This document shows positions 4,931 through 62,245 of a stretch of DNA of 64,000 bases, in pieces. Within the stretch, counting starts at the first letter, position 1, and the number at the start of each line of letters is the position of its first letter. Position numbers and translations under genes: made by a program. The notes beneath the pieces are model-generated. The model saw only the letters and a list, made by a program, of their open reading frames with translations. It was not told the DNA's origin and made no database searches. Source of the DNA: Rhizobium sp. LC145 (lineage in GTDB: Bacteria > Pseudomonadota > Alphaproteobacteria > Rhizobiales > Rhizobiaceae); NCBI RefSeq assembly GCF_001005825.1, contig NZ_LBHV01000005.1, positions 62,001-126,000 on the forward strand, read 5' to 3'.

Positions 4931-4957
4931 TTAACAAATCGTTTACCTTGGTTAACC
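4931..4957. promoter_or_regulatory. Candidate CtrA-binding box upstream of ddl-ftsQAZ
   Basis: TTAA-CAAATCG-TTTA (4931-4945) matches the CtrA consensus TTAA-N7-TTAA with one mismatch, and a half-site TTAACC follows at 4952-4957. It lies about 120 bases upstream of the ddl ATG. CtrA is the alphaproteobacterial cell-cycle response regulator known to control division genes in Caulobacter and rhizobia. Assignment here rests on motif and position only. Confidence 0.45.
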
Positions 4958-4959
4958 AC

Positions 4960-6514: not shown

Positions 6515-6535
6515 CTCAAAGCCGGATTCAAGATA

Positions 6536-6580
6536 AAAGAAAAGCCCGCGAAACCATTGGTATCGCGGGCTTTTTTCTTT
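6536..6580. terminator. Bidirectional intrinsic terminator between MFS gene and aqpZ
   Basis: GCCCGCG (6544-6550) and CGCGGGC (6564-6570) form a GC-rich stem, flanked by an A-rich run on the left and TTTTTTCTTT on the right. It therefore works for the plus-strand MFS gene and for minus-strand aqpZ, which converge here. Confidence 0.9.
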
Positions 6581-6596
6581 AAGCGGAGCGCCTTCT

Positions 6597-7325
6597 TCAA
6601 GCGGAGCGTGGAGCCCCGGTAACCTTCGCAGCCGCCGCTTCTTCGCTATCATCCACCAGTTTCCAAGCCACCGCGCCGAGCACCGCACCGACGATCGGCG
6701 CAACCCAGAACAGCCAAAGCTGGCCGAGCGCCCAGCCTCCGGCAACCACCGCCACACCGGTCGACCGAGCCGGATTGACGGAGGTGTTGGTGACCGGGAT
6801 CGAGATCAGATGGATCAGCGTCAAAGCGAGGCCGATCGCGATCGGAGCAAAGCCGGCCGGAACCCTGGAGCCCGTAGCCCCGAGGATGATGAAGATGAAG
6901 AAGCCTGTAAGGACTACTTCCGCCACCAGCGCGGAGGTCAATGAATAGCCACCGGGCGAATGTTCGCCATAGCCATTGGACGCAAAACCGCCGAGCTGGA
7001 AATCGGCCTTACCCGAAGCGATCAGGTAGAGCACGAAAGCTGCGACCACAGCCCCCACCACCTGGGCGATGATGTAGGGTACGAGGCTAGCTGCCGGAAA
7101 TCTGCCGGCCACCGTCAGACCGACCGATACCGCAGGATTGAAATGACCACCGGAAATGCCGCCGACGGCATAGGCCATGGTCAGGACTGTGAGGCCGAAA
7201 GCCAGGGATACGCCTACAAAACCGATACCCAGATCGGGATAGGCGGCGGCCAAGACGGCGCTCCCGCATCCCCCGAATACAAGCCAGAATGTACCAAAGA
7301 ACTCAGCAGAAAGCTTCTTAAACAT
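6597..7325 (-). CDS. aqpZ: Aquaporin Z
   Basis: Inner-membrane water channel of 242 residues, six membrane segments. Both half-helix NPA motifs are present ([11 protein letters not shown] and [11 protein letters not shown]), and the start [19 protein letters not shown] is nearly that of E. coli AqpZ. Aromatic/arginine filter residues appear consistent with a water-specific channel (Arg after the second NPA). I chose the ATG at 7325 by homology; GGGGGTTCTCG precedes it. Longer starts at 7340 or 7376 have no family support. It shares strand with murB but is separated from it by 242 bases with a hairpin. Confidence 0.95.
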
Positions 7326-7533
7326 CGAGAACCCCCACATAGTGTGCCCCTCCGGCTCACGCCGGGGAGAGGGCACGAGTCGTCACTGCCTCATGACTAT
7401 GCAACAAGATTGACGAAATGCAACTTGGACAGGCAGCGGGTGGCTTTCGGCGAAGCGGAAACTTGGAAAAGTGCTAAGGAGTTTCGTTAAGAAACCCCGG
7501 CAACGAACTGATTCGATTCATCTAAGAATTATC

Positions 7534-7556
7534 GATGCCCCGGTAACCGAGGCATC
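7534..7556 (-). terminator. Hairpin after murB, likely end of the mraZ-murB operon
   Basis: GATGCCTCGG-TTA-CCGGGGCATC read on the minus strand makes a 10-pair stem (one G:U) 12 bases beyond the murB stop. It lacks a uridine run (GATAATTCTTAG follows), so it may be a weak terminator or a 3'-end stabiliser. A second small hairpin, GTTTC-gttaa-GAAAC, lies at about 7486-7500. Nothing else is evident between 7326 and 7567. Confidence 0.55.
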
Positions 7557-7567
7557 GGCAGCGTTAC

Positions 7568-8542
7568 TTATTCGCTGGTCGCGCCCTGGAACGGCTTCAC
7601 TTCACGCCCCGGCATGAAGATACCGAGTCGCCTGATCTCCCATTCGAGCTTGATTCCCGAATGTTCGAAGACGCGCTGGCGCACCGTCTCCCCGAGATAT
7701 TCGAGATCGTAACCGGTGGCGTACCCGATATTGATCATGAAGTTGCAGTGAAGCGAGGACATCTGCGCTCCACCGCTCATGAGCCCGCGCCCGCCAGCTT
7801 CGTCGATGAGCTTCCAGGCAGAATGGCCCTCTGGATTCTTGAAGGTCGAACCGCCGGTCTTTTCCTTGATTGGCTGCACCGTTTCGCGATGTTGACGGAC
7901 AGCATCCATATCAGCGCGGATCTTTGCACGATCTTCGGGATAGCCCTCGAAGACCGCATGGGTGAAAATCATGTCCGTGGCAGCCGAGGAATGGCGATAG
8001 CTATAGCCCATGTCGGCGTTGGTGAGCACATGCTTGTTGCCCTTGCGGTCGACCGCATGGACCTCGACGACCCGTTGGGAGGTCTCGCCGCCGTTGGCAC
8101 CGGCATTCATGCGCAGCGCTCCGCCGATCGATCCGGGAATGCCGTAGTAGAATGCGAACCCGCCGATACCATTGTCCATCGCCATGGCGGCAATGTGCTT
8201 GTCGGGGCAGATCGCACCCGCCTGGATGCGGTTCTCGCCGGCGAGATCGACCTGGCCGAACCCCTTGGCGGAAAGCCGCAGGACCACACCCGGAATACCA
8301 CCGTCGCGAACCAGCAGGTTGGAGCCGACGCCCACGACCGTCAGCGGTACGTCTTTGGGAAGAATTTTGAGAAAAGCGACGAGGTCATCGACGTCGTGCG
8401 GCTGGAACATCAGCTCCGCAAGGCCGCCCGCCTGGAACCAGGTCACGCGATCCATGGGAGCGTCCGGCGTCAGACGTCCACGCAATTCCTTGACGCCTTC
8501 TCCAAGCGACGCCAGCAGTTTTTCCCCGTTCACCTGTTTCAT
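7568..8542 (-). CDS. murB: UDP-N-acetylenolpyruvoylglucosamine reductase
   Basis: FAD/NADPH enzyme that reduces UDP-GlcNAc-enolpyruvate to UDP-MurNAc in the cytoplasm. The 324 residues include the FAD-binding [35 protein letters not shown], and the type I segment [21 protein letters not shown] with the catalytic Ser. The ATG at 8542 gives [10 protein letters not shown] and starts two bases after the murC stop, so the pair is coupled. The open frame continues upstream to 8593, but that extension lies inside murC and is not family-like. Confidence 0.96.
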
Positions 8543-43467: not shown

Positions 43468-44673
43468 ATGATCGATAACCACCAGAAACAACCGCCGCTT
43501 TCCGGAATTCGTGTCATCGAGCTTGCCCGCGTGCTGGCCGGCCCCTGGGCGGGGCAGATTCTGGCCGATATGGGCGCCGATGTTATCAAGGTGGAGCATC
43601 CGGAGGGCGGCGACGATACCCGCACATGGGGGCCGCCCTTCGTGGAAGGCAAGGACGGCGAGAACCTTTCTGCCGCCTATTATCACGCCACCAATCGCGG
43701 CAAGCGTTCCATCGCGATAGACCTGAAGACGGAGGAAGGCCAGCAGACCGTCCGCCGCCTTACCGCCACCGCCGACGTGCTGATCGAGAACTTCAAGCTG
43801 GGCGGTCTCGTCAAATACGGGCTCGACTACGAAAGCCTCAGAAAGATCAATCCGAAGCTCGTCTATTGCTCGATCACCGGCTTCGGCCAGAACGGCCCCT
43901 ATGCCAATCTCGCGGGCTACGATTACATCGTACAGGGCATGTCGGGCTTCATGTCGATCACCGGTGAGCCGGACGGTCAGCCGATGAAGGCGGGCGTTGC
44001 GATCGCCGACATCTTCACCGGAATCTATGCCGTCACCGCCATCCAGGGCGCATTGATCCATGCGATGAGAACAGGTGAAGGCCAGCTCGTCGACATGGCG
44101 CTTCTCGACGTCCAGGCCGCGGTGCTCGCCAACCAGAACATGAACTATCTGGTCTCCAGCAAGGCGCCCACCCGCCTGGGCAACGCTCATCCCAATATCT
44201 CGCCTTATGAAGTGGTTCCCGCGGAAGACGGGCACCTGATCCTTGCAGTAGGCAATGATGGCCAGTTCCGCCGGCTCTGCCGCATCCTGGGCATGGAGGC
44301 GATGGCGGATGACGCGAGATTTGCCACCAACAAAGCGCGCGTCGCCAATCGCGACGAAGTGCGCCGCCTGGTGACCGCCGAGACCGCGAAGTGGAAAAAG
44401 GTCGACCTGCTGGCGGCCTGCGGCGAGAATGCCGTGCCGGCCGGACCGATCAACTCCATCGAGGAGATGTTCGAGGACCCGCAGGTGAAGGCCCGCGAAT
44501 TGCGTGTCGATCTCGAAGCGGCGGATGGCACGGTTATTCCCGGCGTCCGAAGCCCGATCGTTCTGTCGGAAACGCCGTTGCACTATAGCCGCCCGAGCCC
44601 GAAACTCGGGGAACACACGGCCGAAGTGCTGGCCGAACTCGCTCAACTGGAAAACAAGGGGAAACAGGCATGA
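43468..44673 (+). CDS. CaiB/BaiF family (class III) CoA-transferase
   Basis: 401-residue acyl-CoA transferase. N-terminal block GIRVIELARVLAGPWAGQIL, ADMGADVIKVEHPEGGDDTR, NRGKRSIAIDLK, YCSITGFGQNGPY, GAGYDYI-like AGYDYIVQGMSG, and VDMALLDVQAAV whose Asp corresponds to the catalytic aspartate of class III enzymes. Donor and acceptor cannot be deduced; formyl-CoA:oxalate, succinyl-CoA and carnitine types are all in this family. The stop overlaps the next start (ATGA), so it acts with the ThDP enzyme. Confidence 0.92.
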   Translation: MIDNHQKQPPLSGIRVIELARVLAGPWAGQILADMGADVIKVEHPEGGDDTRTWGPPFVEGKDGENLSAAYYHATNRGKRSIAIDLKTEEGQQTVRRLTATADVLIENFKLGGLVKYGLDYESLRKINPKLVYCSITGFGQNGPYANLAGYDYIVQGMSGFMSITGEPDGQPMKAGVAIADIFTGIYAVTAIQGALIHAMRTGEGQLVDMALLDVQAAVLANQNMNYLVSSKAPTRLGNAHPNISPYEVVPAEDGHLILAVGNDGQFRRLCRILGMEAMADDARFATNKARVANRDEVRRLVTAETAKWKKVDLLAACGENAVPAGPINSIEEMFEDPQVKARELRVDLEAADGTVIPGVRSPIVLSETPLHYSRPSPKLGEHTAEVLAELAQLENKGKQA

Positions 44674-46319
44674 AGACCGGAGGCCAACTCATCGTCGAAA
44701 CGCTGAAGGCGAACGGGGTCAAGCGCGTCTCCTGCGTGCCGGGAGAAAGCTATCTGGCCGTGCTCGATGCGCTTTACGATAGCGGCATCGATGCGCTCGT
44801 CTGCCGTCAGGAAGGCGGCGCGGCGATGATGGCCGATTGCTGGGGCCGCCTCACCGGCGAGCCGGGCATCTGCATGGTGACCCGCGGGCCCGGCGCCACC
44901 AATGCTTCTGCCGGCCTGCATGTCGCAATGCAGGATTCCGTTCCGATGATCCTCTTTATCGGCCAGGTCGGCCGCGACATGAAGGAGCGCGAAGCCTTCC
45001 AGGAGGTCGAGTACCGCCGCGCCTTCACCGAGTTCGCGAAATGGGTGGGCGAGATCGACGATGCCCGCCGCATTCCGGAATTCGTCACCCGCGCCTTTGC
45101 CGTGGCGACCTCCGGCCGTCCCGGTCCCGTCGTTCTGACGCTTCCCGAAGACATGCTGACGGACGAGGTCGAAGCCCCGGCAGCGCGGTCCTATGCTCGC
45201 GTGGAGAGCCATCCGGGCAAAAGCCAGATCGCGGCCTTCGAGGCGATGCTGAAGGAAGCCGAGCGCCCGATGTTCATCCTCGGCGGCACGCGCTGGAACG
45301 AACGGGCGGTGGCCGATTTCCAGGCTTTCGCTAGCCGCTTCAAGGTTCCGGTCGGCTGCTCCTTCCGCCGACAGATGCTGTTCGACCACCTGCACCCGTC
45401 CTATGCCGGCGACGTCGGCATCGGCATCAACCCGGCGCTCGCCAAGGAGATCAAAAACGCCGATCTGCTCGTCCTCATCGGCAGCCGCATGTCGGAAATG
45501 CCCTCCTCCAGCTACACGCTGATCGACATTCCCTATCCGAAGCAGAAGCTCGTCCACGTCTTCCCCGATCCGGAAGAACTTGGCCGTCTCTACCGCCCGG
45601 ACCTCGCGATCTGTGCCGCCCCTGCCGAATTCGTCGCAGCCATTAAAGAGCTGGAACCGCCGGCCCTGCCGCTCTGGGCGGAACGCAAGTCGGCCATGCA
45701 TGACGCCTATCTCAAATGGTCGACGCCGCCCGAGAAAGGTCCCGGCGCCGTGCATATGGGGCCGATCATGCAATGGATCGAGGAGAATGTGCCGGACGAC
45801 GCGATCTTCACCAACGGCGCCGGCAACTACGCCACTTGGCTGCACCGCTTCCACCGCTTCCGGAAATACAATACCCAGTCGGCGCCCACGTCCGGCTCGA
45901 TGGGCTACGGCCTGCCGGCGGCGGTCGCGGCCAAGCAGCTTTTTCCCGAGCGTGAGGTCGTCTGCTTTGCCGGCGACGGCTGCTTCATGATGCACGGCCA
46001 GGAATTCATCACCGCCGTTCGCTATGGGCTGCCGATCATCACCGTGCTTGTCAACAACGGCATCTACGGCACAATCCGCATGCATCAGGAGCGGGAGTAT
46101 CCGGGCCGCGTCAGCGCGACAGACCTCGTCAATCCGGATTTCGTCGCCTATGCGCAGGCTTTCGGCGGGCATGGCGAACTGGTGGAAAAGACGGAAGATT
46201 TCGGCCCGGCCTATCTCAGGGCGCGGGCAAGCGGCAAGCCGGCAATCATCGAGGTGAGGCTCGACCCGGAGGCGATCACTCCGGCACGTACGCTGACGCA
46301 GATCAGGAACAAGAGCTGA
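44670..46319 (+). CDS. Thiamine-diphosphate-dependent enzyme, acetolactate-synthase-like
   Basis: 549-residue three-domain ThDP enzyme. The activating Glu is in CRQEGGAAMMAD (about 48), followed by GPGATNASAGLHVAMQDSVP; the ThDP/Mg motif is GDGCFMMHGQEF...VLVNN near 435-465. Similar to the large subunit of acetolactate synthase, but isolated from any ilvN-like regulatory gene and coupled to a CoA-transferase. Oxalyl-CoA decarboxylase and 2-hydroxyacyl-CoA lyase share the fold; the ADP-binding features of oxalyl-CoA decarboxylase are not obvious. I therefore leave it unnamed. Confidence 0.9.
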   Translation: MKTGGQLIVETLKANGVKRVSCVPGESYLAVLDALYDSGIDALVCRQEGGAAMMADCWGRLTGEPGICMVTRGPGATNASAGLHVAMQDSVPMILFIGQVGRDMKEREAFQEVEYRRAFTEFAKWVGEIDDARRIPEFVTRAFAVATSGRPGPVVLTLPEDMLTDEVEAPAARSYARVESHPGKSQIAAFEAMLKEAERPMFILGGTRWNERAVADFQAFASRFKVPVGCSFRRQMLFDHLHPSYAGDVGIGINPALAKEIKNADLLVLIGSRMSEMPSSSYTLIDIPYPKQKLVHVFPDPEELGRLYRPDLAICAAPAEFVAAIKELEPPALPLWAERKSAMHDAYLKWSTPPEKGPGAVHMGPIMQWIEENVPDDAIFTNGAGNYATWLHRFHRFRKYNTQSAPTSGSMGYGLPAAVAAKQLFPEREVVCFAGDGCFMMHGQEFITAVRYGLPIITVLVNNGIYGTIRMHQEREYPGRVSATDLVNPDFVAYAQAFGGHGELVEKTEDFGPAYLRARASGKPAIIEVRLDPEAITPARTLTQIRNKS

Positions 46320-50735: not shown

Positions 50736-51881
50736 TCAGAAGCAATCCAGGAAAAGCTGTCTGGTATTTTCCTTGGTCATCGGCACCGGATTGCCGCCGC
50801 AGCTCGGGTCCTCGATCGCCATGGCGGTCAGCTCGTCGATTCGATCCGGCTTGATCCCCATCGCCGTCAGGTTCTCGGGAACGCCAAGCTCCGAGCGCAG
50901 CGACAGCACGTAGTCGTAGAAGCCGTCGAAACCGCCGGAAATTCCGAGATAGGCTGCAGCCCGCGCGATCTTCTCTTCGATCGCCGGACGGTTGAAGCGC
51001 AGCACCGGCGGCATGACGACCGCATTGGTCATGCCGTGATGGGTATTGTAGACCGCGCCGATCGGATGGGAGAGGGAATGGATCGCGCCCAATCCCTTCT
51101 GGAAGGCGACCGCCCCCATGGCCGCAGCCGACATCATGTTGGTGCGGGCTTCGAGATCCGCGCCGTCCTTGAAGGCGCGCGGCAGGAATTCCTTGACGAG
51201 CCGCATGCCCTCGAGCGCGATGCCGCCGGACATCGGATGATAGAAGGGCGAAGAATAGGCTTCCAGGCAATGGGCGAAGGCATCCATGCCCGTGCCGGCG
51301 GTGATCGCCTTCGGCATGCCCATGGTCAGTTCCGGATCGCAGATCACCACGCCCGGCAGCATCTTCGGATGGAAGATGATCTTCTTCACATGGGTTTCCG
51401 AATTGGTGAGCACCCCTGCCCGGCCCACTTCCGAGCCTGTGCCGGCCGTCGTCGGCACGGCGATGATCGGCGCAATCTTGGCGGCATCCGCGCGCGTCCA
51501 CCAGTCGCCGATATCCTCGAAATCCCAGACAGGCCGCGTCTGGCCGGCCATGAAGGCGATCAGCTTGCCGAGATCGAGGCCCGAACCTCCGCCGAAGGCC
51601 ACGACGCCGTCATGGCCGCCCTCCCTGTATGCCCTGATGCCGGCTTCGAGGTTCTTCTCATTGGGATTGGGATCGACCTCGGAAAACATCGCCCGTCCAA
51701 GCCCGGCCTCATCCAGGATATCCAGCGCATGCCCGGTGATCGCCATGGAGGCAAGTCCTCGGTCGGTGACAAGCAACGGCTTCCTGAGCCCCAATGTCTT
51801 GCAGGCGTCCGCCAGCTCCTTGATCCGCCCACGGCCAAGTTTGACGGCGGTGGGATAGCTCCAGTTCGCGACGATATTCAT
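50736..51881 (-). CDS. Iron-containing (type III) alcohol dehydrogenase
   Basis: 381-residue NAD(P)-dependent enzyme. Cofactor loop FGGGSGLDLGK (97-107), PTTAGTGSEV (143-152), and metal ligands placed as Asp200 and His204 (GMDAFAHCLEAY), His272 (SLSHPIG) and His282 (NTHHG). It is last in the operon, overlapping the aldehyde dehydrogenase stop by ATGA. In this context I infer oxidation of a gamma-glutamylated amino alcohol to its aldehyde; direct alcohol substrates cannot be excluded. Confidence 0.93.
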   Translation of the reverse strand: MNIVANWSYPTAVKLGRGRIKELADACKTLGLRKPLLVTDRGLASMAITGHALDILDEAGLGRAMFSEVDPNPNEKNLEAGIRAYREGGHDGVVAFGGGSGLDLGKLIAFMAGQTRPVWDFEDIGDWWTRADAAKIAPIIAVPTTAGTGSEVGRAGVLTNSETHVKKIIFHPKMLPGVVICDPELTMGMPKAITAGTGMDAFAHCLEAYSSPFYHPMSGGIALEGMRLVKEFLPRAFKDGADLEARTNMMSAAAMGAVAFQKGLGAIHSLSHPIGAVYNTHHGMTNAVVMPPVLRFNRPAIEEKIARAAAYLGISGGFDGFYDYVLSLRSELGVPENLTAMGIKPDRIDELTAMAIEDPSCGGNPVPMTKENTRQLFLDCF

Positions 51882-53263
51882 TGGGCTGCTTTCTTCAGAT
51901 GATAGGATTTCGGGCGTGTCAGGTTGTGGAAGCCGAGCACCGAAAGAGATCCCCCTCGCCCGGTTTCCTTGACGCCCGTCCAGACGAGCGCCGGGTCGAG
52001 ATAATCGGCGCGGTTCATGAAGACGGTGCCGGTTTCGAGCTCGCGACCGATCTTCGCCGCACGCTCGGCATCCTTGGTCCAGAGCGAAACGGTCAGCCCG
52101 TACCGGCTGTCGTTCATGAGGCCGATCGCCTCGTCATCCGTCTTCACCTTCATGATCCCGACCGCAGGTCCGAAGGTTTCCTCGCGCATGAACGGCATGG
52201 AATGATCGACATCCACGAGGATCTGCGGCGCGAGATAGGCGCCGCCGTCATCGGCCGGGAAGAGCTTCGGATCGATGAGCGCCTTGGCACCCTTCGAGAC
52301 GGCATCGGCGAGCTGCTCGCGCACCACCTTGGCAAAGCGCTTGTTGGCCATCGGTCCGAGCGTCGTTTCCTTGTCGAGCGGATTACCCAGCTTGTAGTTG
52401 GACACCCACGCGACCGACTTCTCCACGAAGTCGTCATAGAGCGACTCATGCACATAAATTCGCTCGATGCCGCAGCAGCACTGGCCGGAATTGTAGGTCG
52501 CGCCGTCCATCAGCACATCCACCGCCGCGTCGAGATCGGCATCCCCCATCACATAGCCTGGATCCTTGCCGCCAAGCTCCAGTCCGATGCCGGTGAAGGT
52601 ACCGGCGGCTGCCCGCTCGATCGACCGGCCGCCCTCGACCGAGCCCGTAAAATTGATGAAGTTGAACAGGCCTTGCGAGATCAGCTTCGCAGTCGTCTCG
52701 TGATCCAGGAAGATGTTCTGGAACACGTCTTCCGGCACCCCCGCCTCGGCGAAGGCGCGCACCATGCGCTCTCCGACCAGGAGCGTCTGCGCGGCGTGTT
52801 TCAGGATAACGGTATTGCCCGCCATCAATGCCGGAGCGACGGTGTTGATCGCCGTCATATAGGGATAGTTCCAGGGCGCGATGACGAAGACGACGCCGTG
52901 CGGCTCGCGTTCGATGCGGCGCTCGAAACTCGCGCTGTCCTCGACGCGCAGCGGAGCGAGCGCATCGGCGGCGATCGAGGCGACGTAATTGGAGCGCTCG
53001 TTGAACCCCTTGAACTCGCCGCCATAACGCACCGGCCGGCCCATCATCCAGGCAAGCTCGGGCACCACTTCCTCGACCATCTCGTTGAGACGCGCGACGC
53101 CTTTCAGCACGAGATGGACACGCTCTTCGAGCGGCCGCTTCGCCCAGGCCTTCTGCGCTTTCCGCGCGCGCTGCACGGCCTCGGTCGCCGCCTCCAGCGA
53201 CATCGCCGGACGCTCGGCATAGACCGAACCGTCGACCGGCGAGATACATTGGATCATCGTCAT
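51878..53263 (-). CDS. NAD(P)-dependent aldehyde dehydrogenase
   Basis: 461-residue ALDH. Oxyanion/cofactor stretch VIAPWNYPYMTAINTVAPAL, NFTGSVEGGRSIERAA, the catalytic Glu in GLELGGKDPGYV, and catalytic Cys in YNSGQCCCGIER, where three consecutive cysteines are unusual. Family is close to succinate-semialdehyde/gamma-glutamylaminobutyraldehyde-type enzymes. Start uncertain: ATG 53263 (MTMIQCISPVDG) chosen for GGGAA spacing; 53278 and 53257 are possible. Coupled downstream to the iron alcohol dehydrogenase. Confidence 0.92.
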   Translation of the reverse strand: MTMIQCISPVDGSVYAERPAMSLEAATEAVQRARKAQKAWAKRPLEERVHLVLKGVARLNEMVEEVVPELAWMMGRPVRYGGEFKGFNERSNYVASIAADALAPLRVEDSASFERRIEREPHGVVFVIAPWNYPYMTAINTVAPALMAGNTVILKHAAQTLLVGERMVRAFAEAGVPEDVFQNIFLDHETTAKLISQGLFNFINFTGSVEGGRSIERAAAGTFTGIGLELGGKDPGYVMGDADLDAAVDVLMDGATYNSGQCCCGIERIYVHESLYDDFVEKSVAWVSNYKLGNPLDKETTLGPMANKRFAKVVREQLADAVSKGAKALIDPKLFPADDGGAYLAPQILVDVDHSMPFMREETFGPAVGIMKVKTDDEAIGLMNDSRYGLTVSLWTKDAERAAKIGRELETGTVFMNRADYLDPALVWTGVKETGRGGSLSVLGFHNLTRPKSYHLKKAAQ

Positions 53264-53300
53264 GATCGAAATTCCCATTCTTTCGTTGGATGTGGGCGAT

Positions 53301-54671
53301 TTACGCCCGTTCGAACCCGCGCGCCACTTCCCAGTCGGTCACGCGGCGGTCGTATTCCTCCTGCTCCCAGTTGGCTGCACGCACGTAGTGGTCGATGACG
53401 TCGTCCCCGAAAGCCTCCCGCAGCAGCTCGGAATTGTCCATCAGTTCTGTGGCGTGACGCAGCGTGCGCGGAATCTCACGGACACCCTTGCCGCCATAGG
53501 CATCGCCGACGAAGGCCGGCTCCAGCTCCATCTTCTTCTCGATACCGTCTATGCCCGCCGCGATCAGCGCAGCCATGGCGAGATAGGGATTGAGATCGGA
53601 ACCGCCGACGCGGCACTCGACGCGGATGCCCTTCGTGCCCTCGCCGCAGAGCCGGTAACCGGCCGTGCGGTTGTCCTTCGACCAGATCGCCTTGGTCGGC
53701 GCAAAGGTCCCGGCCATGAACCGCTTGTAGGAATTGATGTAGGGCGCCAGGAAATAGGTGATCTCGCTGGCATGGCTGAGAAGCCCTGCCATGTAGTGTT
53801 TCATCGTGGCCGACATGCCGTATTCGCCCTCCTTGTCGAAGAAGAGCGGCGTGCTGCCATCCGCGCTCCAGAGCGACTGATGGATGTGGGAAGAGCTTCC
53901 GGCCGCGTTGTAATGCCATTTGGCGAGGAAGGTGATGGCCTTGCCCTTCGACCAGGCGATCTCCTTGCAGGCGTTCTTGATGATGACATGCCGGTCGGCC
54001 ATGGCCAGCGCATCGGCGTAACGGACGTTGATCTCTTCCTGGCCGGCCGAGGCCTCGCCCTTGGAATTTTCCACCGGCACGCCTGCGCCCTGCAAGCCTT
54101 TGCGGATCGCCCGCATCACATCCTCTTCCTTGGTGGTCTGGAAGATATGGTAATCTTCGTTATAGCCGCTTGCGAGCTTCAGGTCGCGATAGCCGCTTTC
54201 TCTCGCCTGGTCATAGGTCTGATCGAACAGGAAGAATTCCAGCTCCGTCGCCATGAAGGCGGCCATTCCCATGTCTTCCAGCCGCTTCACCTGCTTCTTG
54301 AGAATGGCGCGCGGAGAATGCGGCACTTCCTCATGGGTATGGTGATCCAGCACGTCGCAGATGACCAGCGCGGTGCCTTCCAGCCAGGGGAGTCTCCGCA
54401 ACGTCGAGAGATCGGGCTTCATAGTGTAGTCGCCATAGCCCTGCTCCCAGCTCGTCGCCTTGTAGCCGGAGATGGTTTCCATCTCCATGTCGGTCGCCAG
54501 CAGATAGTTGCAGCTATGGGTTTCCTTGTAGGCGCTTTCGACGAAATATTCCGCCTGGAACCGCTTGCCCATGAGACGACCCTGCATATCGACCTGGGCC
54601 GCGATCACGGTATCGATGCTGCCGGCGGCGACATCCTGCTTCAACTCATCGAAAGTATATGTGGCAGCCAT
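53301..54671 (-). CDS. Glutamine-synthetase-like gamma-glutamyl ligase
   Basis: 456-residue GS-fold enzyme of the PuuA/GlnA4/IpuC class, not GlnA. Catalytic blocks: FMATELEFFLFDQ, AGQEEINVRY, the HIHQ loop GSSSHIHQSLW (GS has GxxxH-HxS), KAIWSKDNRTAGYR and RVECRVGGSDLNPYL. The adenylylation Tyr segment of GlnA is not seen. It joins glutamate to a primary amine using ATP. The neighbouring ethanolamine-type permease and two dehydrogenases suggest ethanolamine or a similar amino alcohol; putrescine is the main alternative. ATG 54671 gives MAATYTFDELKQDV. Confidence 0.91.
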   Translation of the reverse strand: MAATYTFDELKQDVAAGSIDTVIAAQVDMQGRLMGKRFQAEYFVESAYKETHSCNYLLATDMEMETISGYKATSWEQGYGDYTMKPDLSTLRRLPWLEGTALVICDVLDHHTHEEVPHSPRAILKKQVKRLEDMGMAAFMATELEFFLFDQTYDQARESGYRDLKLASGYNEDYHIFQTTKEEDVMRAIRKGLQGAGVPVENSKGEASAGQEEINVRYADALAMADRHVIIKNACKEIAWSKGKAITFLAKWHYNAAGSSSHIHQSLWSADGSTPLFFDKEGEYGMSATMKHYMAGLLSHASEITYFLAPYINSYKRFMAGTFAPTKAIWSKDNRTAGYRLCGEGTKGIRVECRVGGSDLNPYLAMAALIAAGIDGIEKKMELEPAFVGDAYGGKGVREIPRTLRHATELMDNSELLREAFGDDVIDHYVRAANWEQEEYDRRVTDWEVARGFERA

Positions 54672-54740
54672 GCCTGTGCATCCGTTCCTATGAAGATAAC
54701 GTAAGGGAAGACGCGGCCCGAAGGCCGCGTCCATTCGGCC

Positions 54741-56240
54741 TTAGACGAGCGAAGCCGCCTGCTTGTGCTCCATCGCGAACTCCTCCTCCGGGGAGAGGAT
54801 GAGGCGGTGGCGCCCAACGACCGCGAAATAGGCGATCGCGATCGCAAACCAGATGGCAACCCAGAGAACCCCCTTCGAGAAATTCGGATCCTGTACCTGG
54901 TAGATCAGGGTGACGATCGCGATGATGATCGTCAAGACGGCTCCCGGTATGCCGAGCGGCGAGCGGAAGGGCCGCTCGATATTGGGCAGCTTCTTGCGCA
55001 GGATGATGAACGATATCCCCTGCATGATGTAGGAGAACATCGCCCCGAACACAGCCATGTTGAGTAGCACGCTGCCGATGATGCTGCCGCCCTGTTCCGC
55101 GCCGAGCCCGAACCAGATCGCCAGCATGACCGCCAGCCCGACCACGGAACCCGTGATCATCGCGACATAAGGCGTCTTGTAGGAGGAATGGGTGACGGAA
55201 AGCCCCGTCGGGAAATAACCTGCCCGCGACAGCGAATAGATCTGCCTGCCCTGTGCGTAGAGGATCGTGTGGAAACTGGCGATGAGACCCGTCAGCGCCA
55301 CGAGGCCGAGAAGCACGACGCCGCTGTCGCCGTAGATCGCCCGGAAGCCGTCCAGCAGCGGTTCCAGCGAGGAACCGAGATGGAAGGAGCCGACACCCGG
55401 CACGGAAGGATTCAGGAGCACGATCATGAAGGCGGAGATCATCAGCGTGATGATGCCGAGGATGATGCCCTTCGGCATATCGCGCTTGGGATCGACCGAC
55501 TCCTCGGCCGCAAGCGGAAGCTGCTCGATGGCCAGGAACAGCCACACGGCGAAAGGCAGCGTTGCGAGCACGCCGGAGAAGCCGAAGGGGAACCATTCGC
55601 CATTGCCTTCCGGCAGTTCCACCGCCGCGCCATCCGGACCGACGCCGACATTCAGGGCCCAGCGTGAGAAATCCATGCTCGGAATGGCGCTGATCCAGAA
55701 GAACACCAGCACCGCCAGCGAAATCACCGTGATAACCAGCGTGACCTTGAAGGAAAGCTCCAGCCCGAAGACGTTGAGCCCCAGAAAGATCAGATAGAAG
55801 ACGATCCATATCAGTGGCGAATAGGCGGGATCGAGCCCGAAGATCGAGTTCACATAGGCCGTTATGAAGGTGACGATCACCGCCGGCGTCAGCACGTATT
55901 CCACGTTTTCGCAAAGCCCGGTGATGAAACCGCCCCATGGCCCCATCGCCGTGCGGGCGAAAGAATAGGCCGCCCCCGTATGCGGCAATGCCGGGCTCAT
56001 CTCGGCGATCGAGAAGGTGAGCCCCAGATACATGATGGCGATGATGATGCCGGCGACCAGCATGCCGCCCCAGCCGCCGGTCGCGAAACCGAAATTCCAA
56101 CCGGAGAAATGGCCAGAGATGACGGCTCCGACGCCGAGCGCCCAAAGCGACCAGACCCCCGCATAGCGCGAGAGGCCCCTCTTTTCGAAATAGGATGCGT
56201 CAGCCTTCTTGTAGCTGACGCCTGCGGATGAACTTTCCAT
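54741..56240 (-). CDS. APC-family amine permease, ethanolamine-permease-like
   Basis: 499-residue inner-membrane transporter with about 12 helices. The first-helix region ALGVGAVISGHFSGWNFGF and the following GGWGGMLVAGIIIAIMYLG resemble ethanolamine permease (Eat) and related amine carriers of the APC superfamily; LPHTGAAYSFARTAMGPWGG is the conserved second block. AGGAGAGAAGGGC precedes the ATG at 56240; the frame is open to 56357 but without family support. It lies between the amidohydrolase-like gene and the GS-like gene. Confidence 0.9.
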   Translation of the reverse strand: MESSSAGVSYKKADASYFEKRGLSRYAGVWSLWALGVGAVISGHFSGWNFGFATGGWGGMLVAGIIIAIMYLGLTFSIAEMSPALPHTGAAYSFARTAMGPWGGFITGLCENVEYVLTPAVIVTFITAYVNSIFGLDPAYSPLIWIVFYLIFLGLNVFGLELSFKVTLVITVISLAVLVFFWISAIPSMDFSRWALNVGVGPDGAAVELPEGNGEWFPFGFSGVLATLPFAVWLFLAIEQLPLAAEESVDPKRDMPKGIILGIITLMISAFMIVLLNPSVPGVGSFHLGSSLEPLLDGFRAIYGDSGVVLLGLVALTGLIASFHTILYAQGRQIYSLSRAGYFPTGLSVTHSSYKTPYVAMITGSVVGLAVMLAIWFGLGAEQGGSIIGSVLLNMAVFGAMFSYIMQGISFIILRKKLPNIERPFRSPLGIPGAVLTIIIAIVTLIYQVQDPNFSKGVLWVAIWFAIAIAYFAVVGRHRLILSPEEEFAMEHKQAASLV

Positions 56241-56376
56241 GCCCTTCTCTCCTGATCCAAGAAAACGGGCAGCCGGCGTCAAATGCCGACCACGCCCCTC
56301 AAAATCTCGCACGCCGCCCGCTTGTTTCTCGGTGTCGATGCGCGTCGCAGCTTCCACTGCTCCCCGGGTCTTATCG

Positions 56377-57147
56377 TTAGACGTCTGCGAGACTTTCCCG
56401 CAGCAGGCCTGTCAGGAAATCGGCCACGACCCCTTGGCCGGTTTCGTCTGCTATCAAATCGTTCCTTATTTCGATCATCACGTTCAGAAGCCCCGCCGGC
56501 ATGGCGTGAACCTCGAGCGTATGCGTAACCCCATCCGCCGGCCCATAGGGCTCGTTGCACGCGACATGGTAGAGACGCGTGTCTGCGGCGGCTGCAAGCA
56601 TGCGATCGGCAAGCCGGCTGTCTTTTTCGTGCAGGATGCCGATTTCGACCTCGCGCAGCTTTCCGAAATAGACCGGCGTGAAACTGTGGACGGTAACGAG
56701 CACCGTCGGCCGTCCCCGCGCACGCCTGGCTGCGATCTCCTCGCGGATACGCCCATGGAACGGCAGGTAAAGCGAGGTGGTCCGCAGCGACCGCTCCGCT
56801 TCCGTCAGGTTCTCGTTGCCGGGAATGCGGAAGATCTCGCTGACGTCGCGCATCGCTGCGGGAGATTCCGGCGGGCGGTTGCAATCGTAGATCAGCCGGG
56901 AAAAGCGCTGGTGGATCAGCGTTGCGTCGAGGCTGCGCGACATCAGCCGTGAAACGGCGAGCGCGCCAGGATCCCAGGCGATATGAGAGGCAAGCGCCTC
57001 TTGCGAAAGCCCGAGGTCGCCGTAGCGCTCCGGCAGGCGGCGGGAGGCATGTTCGCAAACCAGCAGCACCTCGCCGCGCCCGTCAGCGTTTTCCACGGCC
57101 ACGGGATCACCGTCCGCCTTCGTGAAAAACTCCGACTGAACCAGCAT
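56377..57147 (-). CDS. N-formylglutamate amidohydrolase family protein
   Basis: 256-residue zinc-dependent hydrolase of the N-formylglutamate deformylase (FGase) family. Motifs: VLLVCEHASRRLPERYGDLGL, HIAWDPGALAVSRLMS, FSRLIYDCNRPP, TVHSFTPVYFGKLREVEIGIL, and VHAMPAGLLNVMIEIRNDLI, with metal-binding His/Glu/Asp. No hut gene is near, so histidine breakdown is unlikely. It may instead hydrolyse the gamma-glutamyl product of the pathway. It is the first gene of the operon; GAGGCGATC precedes the ATG at 57147. Confidence 0.9.
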   Translation of the reverse strand: MLVQSEFFTKADGDPVAVENADGRGEVLLVCEHASRRLPERYGDLGLSQEALASHIAWDPGALAVSRLMSRSLDATLIHQRFSRLIYDCNRPPESPAAMRDVSEIFRIPGNENLTEAERSLRTTSLYLPFHGRIREEIAARRARGRPTVLVTVHSFTPVYFGKLREVEIGILHEKDSRLADRMLAAAADTRLYHVACNEPYGPADGVTHTLEVHAMPAGLLNVMIEIRNDLIADETGQGVVADFLTGLLRESLADV

Positions 57148-57220: not shown

Positions 57221-57240
57221 TCTGAAAAAATCTTTTCAGA
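57221..57240. promoter_or_regulatory. Candidate RpiR operator in the divergent promoter region
   Basis: TCTGAAAA-AATC-TTTTCAGA is a perfect inverted repeat (8-bp arms, 4-base centre) between the divergent amidohydrolase-like operon and the RpiR gene. RpiR-family sites are typically TGAAA-N-TTTCA palindromes, so this is the obvious candidate operator for both directions. Confidence 0.65.
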
Positions 57241-57316
57241 GCCGCCATTGACACATGTGCTGGAACGATTGTTAAATCTTCTCAAACCGGCGAAGACCGG
57301 GAAAGGGAACAGTTCC

Positions 57317-58207
57317 GTGCCAACCACAGCGCGTACCGTATCGGATGTCATCCGCACTCGTTACGAAAGCCTCACACGCGCTGAACGTCAGCTTGCGGAC
57401 CGAATTTTGGAGAACTACCCGGTGTCGGGCCTCGGCAGCATCACGACGATTGCGGAGAGTGCGGGCGTTTCCACGCCGACCGTCGCGCGCATGGTGCAGA
57501 AGCTCGGCTACAAGGGCTATCCGGAGTTCCAATCGCATCTGCATCAGGAACTCGAGGCAACGCTCTCGAACCCGATCGCCAAGCATGATCGCTGGGCGTC
57601 CAATGCGCCGGGCACGCACATTCTCAACCGTTTCGCCGATGCCATCACCGGCAATCTGCGCGATACGCTCTCCGATCTCGACACCAGAACCTTCGAAGGT
57701 TCGGCGGCTCTTCTGGGCGACCGCAACCGCGGCATCTATTTCGTCGGCGGCCGCATCACCGGCGCGCTTGCGGAATATTTCTTCACCCATATGCAGGTGA
57801 TCCGCCCGAAGACGACGCTGATCTCCACCAATTCCAGTTCCTGGCCGCAGCATGTGCTGAACATGAATGCTGGCGATGTGCTGGTGATCTTCGATATCCG
57901 CCGTTACGAGCAGGAGATGGCGACGCTCGCGGAAGCCGCAAGGGCCAACGGCGTCGTCATCATCTTGTTCACGGATGTCTGGTCATCGCCCGTGGCCAAG
58001 CATGCCGAGCACATCTTCAAGGTGCGGATCGAGGCGCCCTCCGCCTGGGATTCCTCCGTCATAACCCTCTTCGTCGTGGAGGCTCTCATCGAGGCCGTAC
58101 AAAGCTCCACATGGACGGAGACCCGGGAACGCATGAATTCGCTGGAAGGCCTGTTCGAGCGGACGCGATTGTTCCGCCGACCGGGCCGCCAGCCCCGTTC
58201 CGAGTAA
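57317..58207 (+). CDS. RpiR/MurR-family transcriptional regulator
   Basis: 296-residue regulator with an N-terminal HTH_6 domain (LTRAERQLADRILENYPVSG; GVSTPTVARMVQKLGYKGYPEF) and a C-terminal SIS sugar-phosphate-binding domain (GNRGIYFVGGRITGALAEYF; DVLVIFDIRRYEQEM). Many RpiR proteins in rhizobia control sugar or amine use. The GTG at 57317 is preceded by AGGGAACAG; TTG 57248 or GTG 57257 would extend it. It is divergent from the amine operon and precedes the ABC importer, so it may control both. Confidence 0.88.
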   Translation: MPTTARTVSDVIRTRYESLTRAERQLADRILENYPVSGLGSITTIAESAGVSTPTVARMVQKLGYKGYPEFQSHLHQELEATLSNPIAKHDRWASNAPGTHILNRFADAITGNLRDTLSDLDTRTFEGSAALLGDRNRGIYFVGGRITGALAEYFFTHMQVIRPKTTLISTNSSSWPQHVLNMNAGDVLVIFDIRRYEQEMATLAEAARANGVVIILFTDVWSSPVAKHAEHIFKVRIEAPSAWDSSVITLFVVEALIEAVQSSTWTETRERMNSLEGLFERTRLFRRPGRQPRSE

Positions 58208-58340
58208 ACGCATGCGCATGTAAAATTCGACAGCCAAATAGGGAACTTATGAGAAAATGCTCACCTACCTGGCTGTCACATCGCATTCATGAAACGGCTC
58301 TACGAGTGCGCCGAGACGCCCTGAACCCTAGGAGGATACC

Positions 58341-59444
58341 GTGCTCAAGAACAACCGACGCCTGCTGTCGCTGACGACCGCAGCCCTCATCGCTTCCACC
58401 AGCCTCGCGGCTGCCGAACCCAGCGCCGAACTGATCGAAGCCGCCAAGAAGGAAGGCATGCTGACGACCATCGCCCTGCCCCATAGCTGGTGCGGTTATG
58501 GCGACATCATTGCCGGCTTCAAGGCGAAATACGGCATCGAGGTCAACGAACTGAACCCGGACGCAAGCTCGGGCGACGAAATCGAAGCCATCAAGGCCAA
58601 TAAGGGCAATACCGGCCCGCAGGCTCCCGACGTGATCGACGTCGGCCTCTCCTTCGGCCCCTCATCGAAGGCCGAGGGCCTGATCCAGCCCTATAAGGTC
58701 TCGACCTGGGACAGCATCCCGGAAGACGCCAAGGATGCCGAAGGTCACTGGTACGGCGACTATTACGGCGTGCTGTCCTTCGTTGTGAACACCGACATCG
58801 TCAAGGAGGTGCCGAAGGACTGGAAGGACCTGATCAAGCCGGAATATGCCAATGCGGTTGCACTTGCAGGCGATCCGCGCGGCTCCAACCAGGCCGTGCA
58901 GGCGGTTTATGCGGCCGGCATCGCCGGAGGCGAGAAGGATGCAACCAAAGCTGGGGAAGCCGGACTCAGCCTCTTCGCGGAGGTCAACAAAGCCGGCAAT
59001 TTCGTCCCGGTTATCGGTAAGTCCGCTTCGCTTGCGCAAGGCTCGACGCCGATTGTCATCGCGTGGGACTATAACGGCCTCACCTGGCGCGATACGCTGA
59101 AAGGCAATCCGCCGCTCGACGTGATCGTTCCCGAAACCGGTGTCGTCGCCGGCGTCTACGTCCAGGCGATCTCCGCCTTCGCGCCGCATCCGAATGCCGC
59201 CAAGCTCTGGATGGAATACATCTACTCCGACGAAGGCCAGCTCGGCTATCTGAAGGGCTATTGCCACCCTATCCGCTTCAACGACCTCGTCGCCAAGGGC
59301 AAGGTTCCGCAGGAAATGCTCGACAAGCTGCCGCCCGCGGCCGCTTACGAAAAGGCTGTTTTCCCGACCCTTGCGGAGCAGGAAGCCGGCAAGACCGCGA
59401 TCACCACCAAGTGGGATAGCGTCGTCGGTGCCAACGTCCAGTAA
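58341..59444 (+). CDS. ABC transporter periplasmic solute-binding protein (PotD/Afu-like)
   Basis: 367-residue exported binding protein. Signal peptide about residues 1-24 (ALIASTSLAAAEPSAEL). Two-lobe cluster D/F architecture: IALPHSWCGYGDIIAGF, DVIDVGLSFGPSSKAEG, YGVLSFVVNTDIV, and PIVIAWDYNGLTWRD. The family takes iron, putrescine, thiamine or 2-aminoethylphosphonate; substrate is not readable. GTG start with AGGAGGATACC upstream. An inverted repeat GACAGCCA...TGGCTGTC (58229-58277) lies in the leader. A terminator hairpin follows the stop. Confidence 0.9.
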   Translation: MLKNNRRLLSLTTAALIASTSLAAAEPSAELIEAAKKEGMLTTIALPHSWCGYGDIIAGFKAKYGIEVNELNPDASSGDEIEAIKANKGNTGPQAPDVIDVGLSFGPSSKAEGLIQPYKVSTWDSIPEDAKDAEGHWYGDYYGVLSFVVNTDIVKEVPKDWKDLIKPEYANAVALAGDPRGSNQAVQAVYAAGIAGGEKDATKAGEAGLSLFAEVNKAGNFVPVIGKSASLAQGSTPIVIAWDYNGLTWRDTLKGNPPLDVIVPETGVVAGVYVQAISAFAPHPNAAKLWMEYIYSDEGQLGYLKGYCHPIRFNDLVAKGKVPQEMLDKLPPAAAYEKAVFPTLAEQEAGKTAITTKWDSVVGANVQ

Positions 59445-59459
59445 CACCGTGCAATCGGT

Positions 59460-59490
59460 CCCCTCGCCATCGGCGGGGGGGCTTTTTCTT
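59460..59490 (+). terminator. Hairpin terminator/attenuator between binding-protein and permease genes
   Basis: CCCCTCGCC-atc-GGCGGGGGG (59460-59480) forms a near-perfect 9-pair stem (one U:G), followed by GCTTTTTCTTTT. It would lower expression of the permease and ATPase relative to the binding protein. Confidence 0.75.
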
Positions 59491-59578
59491 TTCCTGCCGA
59501 AAAGGACCCCTGAACATAGCCTCGCCCCGTCTCATCGACCGCCGCACCGTCATCGATTGGCTGGGTATCGCGCCGTTC

Positions 59579-60385
59579 ATGATCTTCGCGTTGATGTTTC
59601 TGGTCATGCCGACGCTTTATCTCGTCGCGGGAGCCTTCTTCAATTCTGCGGGTGAATTCACCTTCGAGAACATCACCGGCCTTTTCACCCCCACAATCCT
59701 CAGCGCCTACTGGATCAGCATCAAGGTCTCCTTTGCCTCGGCTTTCGGCGGAGCAGTCATCGGTTTCTTTCTTGCCTGGGCGATCGTGTTGGGCGGCCTT
59801 CCCTCCTTCGTCCGGTCCGGCCTTCTCACTTTCTCCGGTGTGGCATCCAACTTCGCCGGCGTCCCTCTCGCCTTCGCCTTCATAGCCACGCTCGGCCGCA
59901 CCGGCCTCGTCACCGTCTTTCTGCGGGAATGGTTCGGTTTCAACCTTTATTCCACCGGCTTCAATCTTCTCTCTTTCTTCGGACTCACCATCACCTACAT
60001 GTTCTTCCAGATCCCGCTGATGGTGCTGATCCTCACCCCTGCGCTCGATGGGTTGAAGAAGGAGTGGCGGGAGGCCTCCGAGAGCCTTGGCGCGTCGACC
60101 TGGCAATACTGGCGCATGGTGGGACTGCCGATCCTCTGGCCGAGCCTGCTCGGCACCAGCCTGCTGCTCTTCGCCAATGCCTTCGGAGCGATCGCCACGG
60201 CGTATGCGCTCACCGGTTCCTCGCTCAACATCGTGCCGATCCTTCTCTACGCGCAGATACGTGGCGACGTTCTCCACAATCCCAATCTCGGTTATGCGCT
60301 GGCGCTCGGAATGATCCTCATCACCGGCATCTCCAACATCCTCTTCATCTGGCTGCGGATGCGCGCCGAACGGTGGCAGAAATGA
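59579..60385 (+). CDS. ABC transporter permease 1
   Basis: 268-residue inner-membrane permease with six helices and the EAA loop EASESLGASTWQYWRMVGLPILWPS contacting the ATPase. ATG 59579 is the first canonical start in frame, but it lacks a ribosome site, and upstream in-frame codons read PRLIDRRTVIDWLGIAPF, a plausible N-terminus, starting from a CTG at 59510 just after AAAAGGA. No ATG, GTG or TTG lies further up before the hairpin. The true start is therefore uncertain. Its stop overlaps permease 2 (ATGA). Confidence 0.88.
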   Translation: MIFALMFLVMPTLYLVAGAFFNSAGEFTFENITGLFTPTILSAYWISIKVSFASAFGGAVIGFFLAWAIVLGGLPSFVRSGLLTFSGVASNFAGVPLAFAFIATLGRTGLVTVFLREWFGFNLYSTGFNLLSFFGLTITYMFFQIPLMVLILTPALDGLKKEWREASESLGASTWQYWRMVGLPILWPSLLGTSLLLFANAFGAIATAYALTGSSLNIVPILLYAQIRGDVLHNPNLGYALALGMILITGISNILFIWLRMRAERWQK

Positions 60386-61170
60386 AGGCGCAGAAGATAC
60401 TCGCCTGGACTGCTATCGCCATCGGCGCGCTCTATTTCCTCGTCCCGCTGATCGGCACGTTCGAGTTCTCGATGCGCATGCGCCGCGATGCCTACTCCTT
60501 CGATGCCTATCACTCCGTCTTCTCGGACATGCAGTTTCGCGCGACCTTCGGCTTTTCCATGCTGATGGCGCTTTTCACCATCGTCTTCGGGATGCTGCTG
60601 GTGGTTCCGACTGCCTATTGGGTGCGGCTGCGCCTTCCCCAAGCTCGGCCGGTGGTAGAGTTCATCACCCTGCTGCCGCTGGTGATCCCCGCGATCGTCA
60701 TCGTTTTCGGCTATCTCAGGCTCTACAATTCCTCGTCCTGGCTTCCCTTCACGGGTTCCGTCGCCGGCACGAACATGCTGCTCGTGCTGTCCTACATCAC
60801 CCTTTCGCTGCCTTACATGTACCGCGCCGTGGATACCGCCATGCGGGCGATCGACGTGCGCACGCTGACCGAAGCCGCCGAAAGCCTCGGCGCAAAATGG
60901 CCGACCATCCTGTTTCGCTGCATATTTCCGAACGTCATGTCGGGAGTGCTCTCGGGCGCCTTCATCACCTTCGCGATCGTCATGGGCGAATTCACCATGG
61001 CCGCTCTCCTGAACCGCCCGGCCTTCGGCCCTTATCTGCAGCTTGTCGGCGCCAACAAAGCCTACGAGCCCTCCGCGCTCGCGATCATCGCATTCGCCAT
61101 TACCTGGCTGTCGATGGGTCTGCTCCAGCTCGTTTCCCGTTTCAGCAAACTGGCGCCCGCCCGGACTTGA
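60382..61170 (+). CDS. ABC transporter permease 2
   Basis: 262-residue inner-membrane permease with six helices and the EAA motif TEAAESLGAKWPTILFRCIFPNVMSG. The ATG overlaps the preceding stop (ATGA), so translation is coupled. The frame is open upstream inside permease 1, but that part is a shadow. Forms a heterodimeric channel with permease 1. Confidence 0.92.
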   Translation: MKAQKILAWTAIAIGALYFLVPLIGTFEFSMRMRRDAYSFDAYHSVFSDMQFRATFGFSMLMALFTIVFGMLLVVPTAYWVRLRLPQARPVVEFITLLPLVIPAIVIVFGYLRLYNSSSWLPFTGSVAGTNMLLVLSYITLSLPYMYRAVDTAMRAIDVRTLTEAAESLGAKWPTILFRCIFPNVMSGVLSGAFITFAIVMGEFTMAALLNRPAFGPYLQLVGANKAYEPSALAIIAFAITWLSMGLLQLVSRFSKLAPART

Positions 61171-61183
61171 GGAATTTCATTGC

Positions 61184-62245
61184 ATGTCGTTTCTGGTTCT
61201 CGACCACATAAACAAGAGTTTCGGCGTTACGCAGGTCGTCAAGGATTTCGACATGTCCGTCGAGAAGGGAGAATTCATCTCTTTCCTCGGGCCCTCCGGC
61301 TGCGGCAAGACTACAGTGCTGCGCATGATCGCGGGCTTTGAAATGCCGAGCGGCGGCCGGATCAGCATCAACGGCAAGGACCAGAACAACCTCAAGACCA
61401 GCCAGCGCAACATCGGCATGGTCTTCCAGGCCTATGCGCTTTTTCCCAACATGAATGTCTTCGACAATGTCGCCTTCGGGCTGAAGGTGGCGGGCAAGCC
61501 GAAGGCGGAGATCGAGGCGCGCGTGAAGGAGATGCTGGCGCTGATCCGGCTCGATCATCTTTCGGACCGCTATCCCTACCAGCTTTCGGGCGGGCAGCAG
61601 CAGCGCGTAGCACTTGCCCGCGCGCTCGCGCCGAAGCCGCAGGTGCTCCTGCTCGACGAACCGCTTTCGGCGCTCGATGCGAAGATCCGCGTCTCGCTGC
61701 GCGAGGAAATCCGCCAGATCCAGCGCCAGCTCGGCATCACCACCGTATTCGTCACGCACGACCAGGAGGAGGCGCTGTCGATTTCCGACCGGATCGTCGT
61801 GATGAACGCCGGCCGCGCCGACCAGATCGGCACGCCCTCGGAAATCTACAATCGCCCGGCAACCCGCTTCGTGGCTTCGTTCGTCGGCACGCTGAACATG
61901 ATCGAGGCGACCGTGGCCGATCCCGCCGCCGATACGGTGAAGATCGGCGGTGAACTTGTCGGGCTTCGCCAATCGCTTGCCGGCAGGAAGAGCGGAGACA
62001 AGCTCTCGCTGGCGCTCCGGCCGGAAGCAGGCTCGATCGCTGCGAATGCCAAGGGCGATACGGCGCTTGCCGGCGAAGTCGTGTCCTCTCATTTTCTGGG
62101 CTCGGTCATCCGCACGAAGATCGACATCGGCGGCAACCAGGTTTCCTTCGACATGTTCAACTCGCCGGATGCCATAATACCTGCTCCGGGCGAGAAGGTG
62201 ACGCTGCGTTTTGCTGCAGGCGACCTTCTCGTCGTCGAGGACTAA
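61184..62245 (+). CDS. ABC transporter ATP-binding protein (PotA/FbpC type)
   Basis: 353-residue ATPase: Walker A GPSGCGKTTVLRM (about 37-49), Q-loop MVFQAYALFPNMNV, signature LSGGQQQRVALARAL, Walker B VLLLDEPLSALDAK, H-loop VFVTHDQEEAL, and a C-terminal TOBE regulatory domain (about 245-353). Similar ATPases serve iron, spermidine or 2-aminoethylphosphonate importers. ATG 61184 follows GAGGAA and lies 13 bases after the permease stop. Last gene of the importer operon. Confidence 0.94.
   Translation: MSFLVLDHINKSFGVTQVVKDFDMSVEKGEFISFLGPSGCGKTTVLRMIAGFEMPSGGRISINGKDQNNLKTSQRNIGMVFQAYALFPNMNVFDNVAFGLKVAGKPKAEIEARVKEMLALIRLDHLSDRYPYQLSGGQQQRVALARALAPKPQVLLLDEPLSALDAKIRVSLREEIRQIQRQLGITTVFVTHDQEEALSISDRIVVMNAGRADQIGTPSEIYNRPATRFVASFVGTLNMIEATVADPAADTVKIGGELVGLRQSLAGRKSGDKLSLALRPEAGSIAANAKGDTALAGEVVSSHFLGSVIRTKIDIGGNQVSFDMFNSPDAIIPAPGEKVTLRFAAGDLLVVED

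Follow-up and report, generated by a model that had tools for sequence, protein, structure and literature searches.

A probable ethanolamine gamma-glutamylation operon in Rhizobium sp. LC145, its exchangeable importer and a divergent ABC importer

Within a 64,000-nucleotide stretch of the Rhizobium sp. LC145 genome (contig NZ_LBHV01000005.1, positions 62,001 to 126,000; hereafter the window), five intact genes follow one another in the same direction on the minus strand (50736-57147) and encode an N-formylglutamate amidohydrolase (FGase)-family hydrolase, an APC permease, a glutamine synthetase (GS)-like ligase, an aldehyde dehydrogenase and an iron alcohol dehydrogenase. Very probably, these genes form the proteobacterial operon for ethanolamine gamma-glutamylation. 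An original prediction, made from the letters of the DNA alone, had given the same five co-directional genes in the same order, which Pfam assignments of the families confirmed. Its gamma-glutamylation scheme for ethanolamine or a close amino alcohol is probably right, being supported by the same four enzyme families in print, by relatives at a related locus (L018) and by the Eat-like permease. Its overall interpretation was partly supported, namely as to substrate, scheme, the lack of eutB and eutC matches and the placement of the GS-like protein; its claim of novelty was not, and it had overlooked a divergent RpiR regulator and an ABC importer at 57248-62245.

The operon and its predicted pathway

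The five genes are listed below with their Pfam scores. Their inner starts were chosen where matches to relatives begin.

50736-51881, minus strand: iron alcohol dehydrogenase, predicted gamma-glutamylethanolamide dehydrogenase (PF00465, 160.5 bits; linkage)
51878-53278, minus strand: aldehyde dehydrogenase, predicted gamma-glutamylacetaldehyde dehydrogenase (PF00171, 397 bits; linkage)
53301-54671, minus strand: GS-like ligase, predicted ethanolamine gamma-glutamylase (gamma-glutamylethanolamide synthetase; PF00120, 344.7 bits; ATG start, longer frame to 54734)
54741-56240, minus strand: APC permease of the Eat (ethanolamine permease) kind (PF13520, 114.9 bits; ATG start, longer frame from 56357)
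56377-57147, minus strand: FGase-family hydrolase, predicted gamma-glutamylglycine amidohydrolase (PF05013, 149.8 bits; ATG start, frame opens at TTG 57174)

The start of the alcohol dehydrogenase gene overlaps the stop of the aldehyde dehydrogenase gene by 4 bases. In the pathway that we propose, ethanolamine would enter through the permease, and probably also through the ABC importer next to the operon, and the GS-like enzyme would join it to glutamate using ATP. The two dehydrogenases would then oxidise the bound alcohol to gamma-glutamylglycine, from which the FGase-family hydrolase would release glycine and glutamate, the latter to be reused. The RpiR regulator, acting at a palindrome in the divergent promoter, would control both arms. 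The host genome (5.88 Mb) is close to that of Rhizobium sp. LCM 4573, the ligases of the two being 97% identical. The canonical Eut ethanolamine ammonia-lyase pathway is ruled out, since neither eutB nor eutC had a match in the host genome at E 0.001, and among 14 control genomes E. coli matched.

All four enzyme families of an ethanolamine gamma-glutamylation operon, PF00120, PF00465, PF00171 and PF05013, stand together in the window, and the same four are tabulated for the ethanolamine pathway of Chromohalobacter salexigens (PMC9397018), which differs from the window in having a TRAP-family binding protein, Csal_0678. In Phaeobacter sp. MED193, an operon was described that comprises an RpiR regulator, an amidohydrolase, a TRAP importer, a ligase, an aldehyde dehydrogenase and an alcohol dehydrogenase; five of its proteins were raised on phosphoethanolamine, and the TRAP binding protein was also raised without phosphate (PMC10132767). 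This operon resembles the window in its RpiR, gamma-glutamylglycine amidohydrolase, ligase, aldehyde dehydrogenase and alcohol dehydrogenase genes, with the same order by locus tag, whereas its importer is the TRAP system EtoVWX and not an APC permease, and its legend names no ABC importer. The annotation of Paracoccus denitrificans PD1222 shows the gene order of MED193, with the hydrolase annotated as N-formylglutamate amidohydrolase. The Ipu isopropylamine pathway and the Puu putrescine pathway follow the same logic of ligase, oxidation and hydrolase as the window. They differ from it in their ligases, the IpuC-annotated protein being 39% and E. coli PuuA 27% identical to the window ligase, and in their hydrolases, which in annotated loci are of the amidotransferase type. 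The ABC importer excepted, the finding is largely ordinary, as the pathway, including its unusual last enzyme, is already in print; it places a known eut-independent ethanolamine route in bacteria of the soil and of root nodules, settings in which membrane phospholipids supply nitrogen.

The GS-like ligase and the FGase-family hydrolase

By sequence, the ligase belongs to the 5dm3 subfamily rather than to GlnA or PuuA. Its best solved relatives are 11zs (666 bits) and 5dm3 (658 bits; 63% identical), the latter of which we take to be the C. salexigens protein Csal_0679. On NCBIfam models it scored 208 bits for gamma-glutamylputrescine synthetase (NF045547; cut-off 650), 268.6 for GlnA (cut-off 429.15) and 249 for type III GS (cut-off 469.6). 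Alignment showed that it keeps E129, E131, E212, E220, H269, E357, R321, R344, R359, H271 and G265 (GlnA numbering), so that the six metal ligands and the phosphate residues are intact, while the ammonium-pocket residues are replaced, with D at Y179 and F at E327. It also has A at N264, as in E. coli PuuA and the IpuC-annotated protein, and S at the position aligned with D50, where the alignment is uncertain. Streptomyces coelicolor GlnA4 has V or D, depending on the model, at Y179 and F at E327 (PMC6529630); it shares with the window the logic of gamma-glutamylation and, in one model, the D and F of the ammonium pocket, but the legend to its cluster in that paper gives a short-chain dehydrogenase and a glutamine amidotransferase.

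In a tree of 29 chosen rows, the 20 proteobacterial rows of the ligase's kind were set apart from the rest by a branch (99/99); Paraburkholderia sabiae and the loci L128 and L138, which miss much of the operon, are counted under this label. Next to them came actinobacterial rows (Arthrobacter U41 and Embleya), Thermomicrobium and the IpuC-annotated protein, at forks that were not starred (92/87, 94/95 and 93/81), and PuuA and GlnA lay further out, with a long-branch warning for the outer rows. Arthrobacter sp. U41 and Embleya sp. stand in for the actinobacterial type in place of S. coelicolor GlnA4, and own_L085, a GS paralogue that is 20% identical and a weak match, was left out. The Arthrobacter U41 ligase is accompanied by a PuuD-type hydrolase, an aldehyde dehydrogenase and a gene annotated as 3-oxoacyl-ACP reductase, and that of Thermomicrobium roseum lies near a gene annotated as ethanolamine permease. 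The phylogenetic placement that the original prediction had put forward as a check came out in its favour, as model scores, residues and tree group the ligase with neither PuuA nor GlnA. Plain GlnA identity was ruled out by the model scores, identities and tree.

The hydrolase is a predicted gamma-glutamylglycine amidohydrolase. Its sole solved relative at E 0.01 is Atu2144 of Agrobacterium tumefaciens C58 (2odf), which is 64% identical, a likeness at the level of the protein; among the hydrolases of the loci compared, the one closest to the 2odf protein, that of L016 from Agrobacterium sp., reaches 70% identity. Of 398 genomes sampled from the phylum, 43 have the ligase at E 1e-100, and 31 of these have a hydrolase within 10 kb of it. 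Exactly these 31 genomes hold the 31 best hydrolase matches of the sample, all within 4 kb of the ligase gene, and the 17 next-best matches share no contig with a ligase. Table 2 of PMC9397018 gives the C. salexigens 'gamma-glutamyl glycine amidohydrolase /formylglutamate amidohydrolase' as PF05013, and MED193_10026 is named gamma-glutamylglycine amidohydrolase (PMC10132767). Because a PF05013 amidohydrolase is thus already in print for the pathway in C. salexigens, a gamma-glutamylglycine amidohydrolase is named in Phaeobacter sp. MED193, and the role has been assigned in several papers, the expectation that it would be new is not borne out. A direct enzyme assay of gamma-glutamylglycine hydrolysis was not found in those parts of the published accounts that assign this step.

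Conservation, importer exchange and alternative readings

A collection scan with the ligase confirmed at least 586 relatives, and the analysis retained the top 80; the titles of these 80 all name Rhizobiaceae genera or a Rhizobiales or Rhizobiaceae bacterium. Linkage was counted in the 75 of these 80 loci that span more than 15 kb. The hydrolase, RpiR regulator, ABC binding protein, aldehyde dehydrogenase and alcohol dehydrogenase genes all lie within 10 kb of the ligase in 75/75 loci, and since the hydrolase, both dehydrogenases and the ligase are together in every one, the operon is not a chance assembly. The importer near the ligase, in contrast to these enzymes, varies: a second APC subfamily occurs in 55 loci, a TRAP importer in 11 and an Eat-like permease in 9. 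The importer types assigned, whose families were checked on representatives, agree with the frames that lie between the hydrolase and ligase genes. In L152, this importer slot (4916-8222, locus orientation) is occupied by a tandem pair of APC permeases.

The exchange is seen in L018, whose ligase (87% identical), aldehyde dehydrogenase (87%), alcohol dehydrogenase (85%) and hydrolase (66%) resemble those of the window and which has a TRAP importer where the window has the Eat-like permease. The TRAP binding protein of L018 matched 4uab with 516 bits, and 4uab is Csal_0678 solved with ethanolamine (PMC12410723). Across the phylum sample, 40 neighbourhoods from 44 ligase matches contained a TRAP importer in 17, the second APC subfamily in 9 and an Eat-like permease in 3, with the hydrolase in 27/40. 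The pathway enzymes stay while the importer is exchanged among relatives. Like this exchange, the gene content, linkage, residues and phylogeny were observed directly.

A different setting was seen on a Paraburkholderia sabiae plasmid (L165, 1868-9347), where a 62%-identical ligase stands with a 2-aminoethylphosphonate transaminase, a PLP enzyme, a desaturase, a PuuD-type hydrolase, a LysE exporter and a homoserine succinyltransferase; this setting is perhaps biosynthetic.

Several points weigh against the assignment of the operon to ethanolamine. For this organism, the reactions proposed for each enzyme, their regulation and the choice of substrate are all inferred from sequence, and published sources disagree on the proof of the pathway: PMC10132767, which describes the MED193 operon as closely related to genes of C. 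salexigens and A. tumefaciens C58, calls the pathway there demonstrated (citing Vetting 2015), whereas PMC6529630 describes the C. salexigens/Agrobacterium pathway as predicted in silico. The permease scored 373.3 bits on the NCBIfam ethanolamine permease model TIGR00908, narrowly below the cut-off of 381.75, and the 4uab match was tested for one TRAP locus, L018. None of the three importer types was present in 11/40 neighbourhoods of the phylum sample, and 12/43 ligase-bearing genomes (G012, G016, G054, G130, G183, G208, G277, G315, G321, G367, G372 and G387) had no hydrolase match within 10 kb. Three PuuD-like queries found no PuuD-like replacement hydrolase in the fetched loci of these 12 genomes, and a Pfam scan of seven frames of two FGase-less loci, L139 and L133, gave no likely substitute, barring a C13-peptidase/MORN protein in L139.

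The same chemistry might instead act on a related amino alcohol (e.g. alaninol, 3-aminopropanol or serinol), with ethanolamine a minor substrate. This ligase family acts on varied amines, the IpuC-annotated member being 39% identical to the window ligase, the window importer differs from the ethanolamine-binding TRAP type, and the P. sabiae ligase occurs in its unlike setting at 62% identity. However, the window ligase and dehydrogenases are 85-87% identical to those that stand beside a Csal_0678-type importer in L018, and the window permease is itself Eat-like, which makes a substrate other than ethanolamine unlikely.

Less probable still is that the hydrolase is an ordinary N-formylglutamate deformylase merely situated here. 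It does belong to PF05013 and weakly matches the deformylase (HutG) model TIGR02017, and none of the three PF05013 genes in the host genome reaches the HutG cut-off. Yet it scored 29.9 bits against that cut-off of 278.75, the HutG model fits a paralogue at another place in the genome better (117.8 bits, also under the cut-off; PF05013 256.1), and the 31 best relatives of the window hydrolase in the sample all stand beside a ligase gene. Least probable of all, and strongly disfavoured, is that the ligase is a PuuA-type polyamine enzyme and the operon degrades putrescine, even though the gene set resembles the Puu family set of ligase, aldehyde dehydrogenase, hydrolase and permease. The ligase reaches 208 of the 650 bits of the gamma-glutamylputrescine synthetase model, is 27% identical to E. 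coli PuuA and is separated from it in the tree; an alcohol dehydrogenase takes the place that the oxidase PuuB has in the E. coli cluster; and the best PuuD-family (PF07722) match of the host genome lies on a different contig. An ethanolamine gamma-glutamylation operon is the reading that we favour over all three.

The divergent regulator and ABC importer

Upstream of the hydrolase gene, the following features were identified.

57223-57238, no strand: palindrome TGAAA-N6-TTTCA, possible operator of the RpiR regulator (exact match; conserved)
57248-58207, plus strand: MurR/RpiR-family regulator with HTH_6 and SIS domains (Pfam; true start may be inside the frame)
58341-59444, plus strand: ABC importer binding protein (SBP_bac_6), with weak similarity to 2-aminoethylphosphonate binding proteins (Pfam, NCBIfam; linkage)
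59579-60385, plus strand: ABC importer permease 1 (PF00528)
60292-61170, plus strand: ABC importer permease 2 (PF00528; frame as searched, start probably further in)
61187-62245, plus strand: ABC importer ATPase (PhnT2 TIGR03265, 420.6 bits, cut-off 457.7; PotA NF006987, 386 bits, cut-off 482)

The best models were those of 2-aminoethylphosphonate importers for the binding protein and ATPase and those of sulfate and molybdate importers for the permeases, all with scores below the cut-offs. Identification of the genes as a 2-aminoethylphosphonate (Phn) importer by equivalog cut-offs was rejected, with 58.3 bits against 310 for the binding protein and 420.6 against 457.7 for the ATPase. Among solved structures, the binding protein is closest to 5t1p, also an ABC binding protein (207 bits). 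In the 398-genome sample, a relative of the binding protein lies within 4 kb of the ligase in 15/15 ligase genomes of the window's family (taken as Rhizobiaceae). The importer genes are either divergent beside RpiR, as in the window, or co-directional downstream of the alcohol dehydrogenase gene (L125-L127, L131, L152 and L158). Against a strict tie to the operon, 11/26 binding-protein relatives (at least 50% identity) stand elsewhere, and four genomes outside the window's family carry both genes on different contigs.

By association only, an ethanolamine compound is the likeliest substrate of this importer. It is plausible, if somewhat short of probable, that it represents an undescribed Rhizobiaceae uptake system for ethanolamine or its headgroup (phosphoethanolamine or glycerophosphoethanolamine), co-controlled by RpiR at TGAAR-N6-TTTCA and serving as the family's constant importer next to a single secondary one that is exchangeable (an Eat-like APC permease, the second APC subfamily or a TRAP type). 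Literature searches covering titles and abstract openings did not find an ethanolamine ABC importer of rhizobia, and PMC9311074 deals with 2-aminoethylphosphonate importers of Pseudomonas. Should the importer carry ethanolamine or the phosphorylated headgroup, it would add, as far as those searches show, a new transporter type for this substrate. This importer is the one modestly interesting point beyond the known pathway.

The pattern TGAAR-N6-TTTCA, which was derived from the window's own palindrome, has its only exact match in the window at 57223-57238, and with one mismatch it occurs 6 times across the window against 3.44 expected, so that the exact palindrome stands out and the looser pattern does not. 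Among 105 divergent intergenic regions, 20 contain the exact pattern and 84 contain it with at most one mismatch, against a shuffled expectation of 1.1; the latter figure comprises 73/77 close loci and only 11/28 distant loci. Of the other spacer lengths tried, 3 gave a count of 16 and the rest counts of 0 to 3. Because the close loci are related, this recurrence is to be taken as conservation and not as independent evidence. We infer that the RpiR regulator binds the palindrome. A sigma-70 scan gave 0 promoter-like sites against 2.1 in shuffles, and terminator-like sites numbered 9 against 6.5 in shuffles.

Elsewhere in the window, a family scan of ten frames left six without a family, some of them probably antisense frames. 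The same kind of scan gave a CoA-transferase III followed by a thiamine pyrophosphate enzyme at 43468-46319, a pair with some likeness to formyl-CoA transferase and oxalyl-CoA decarboxylase.

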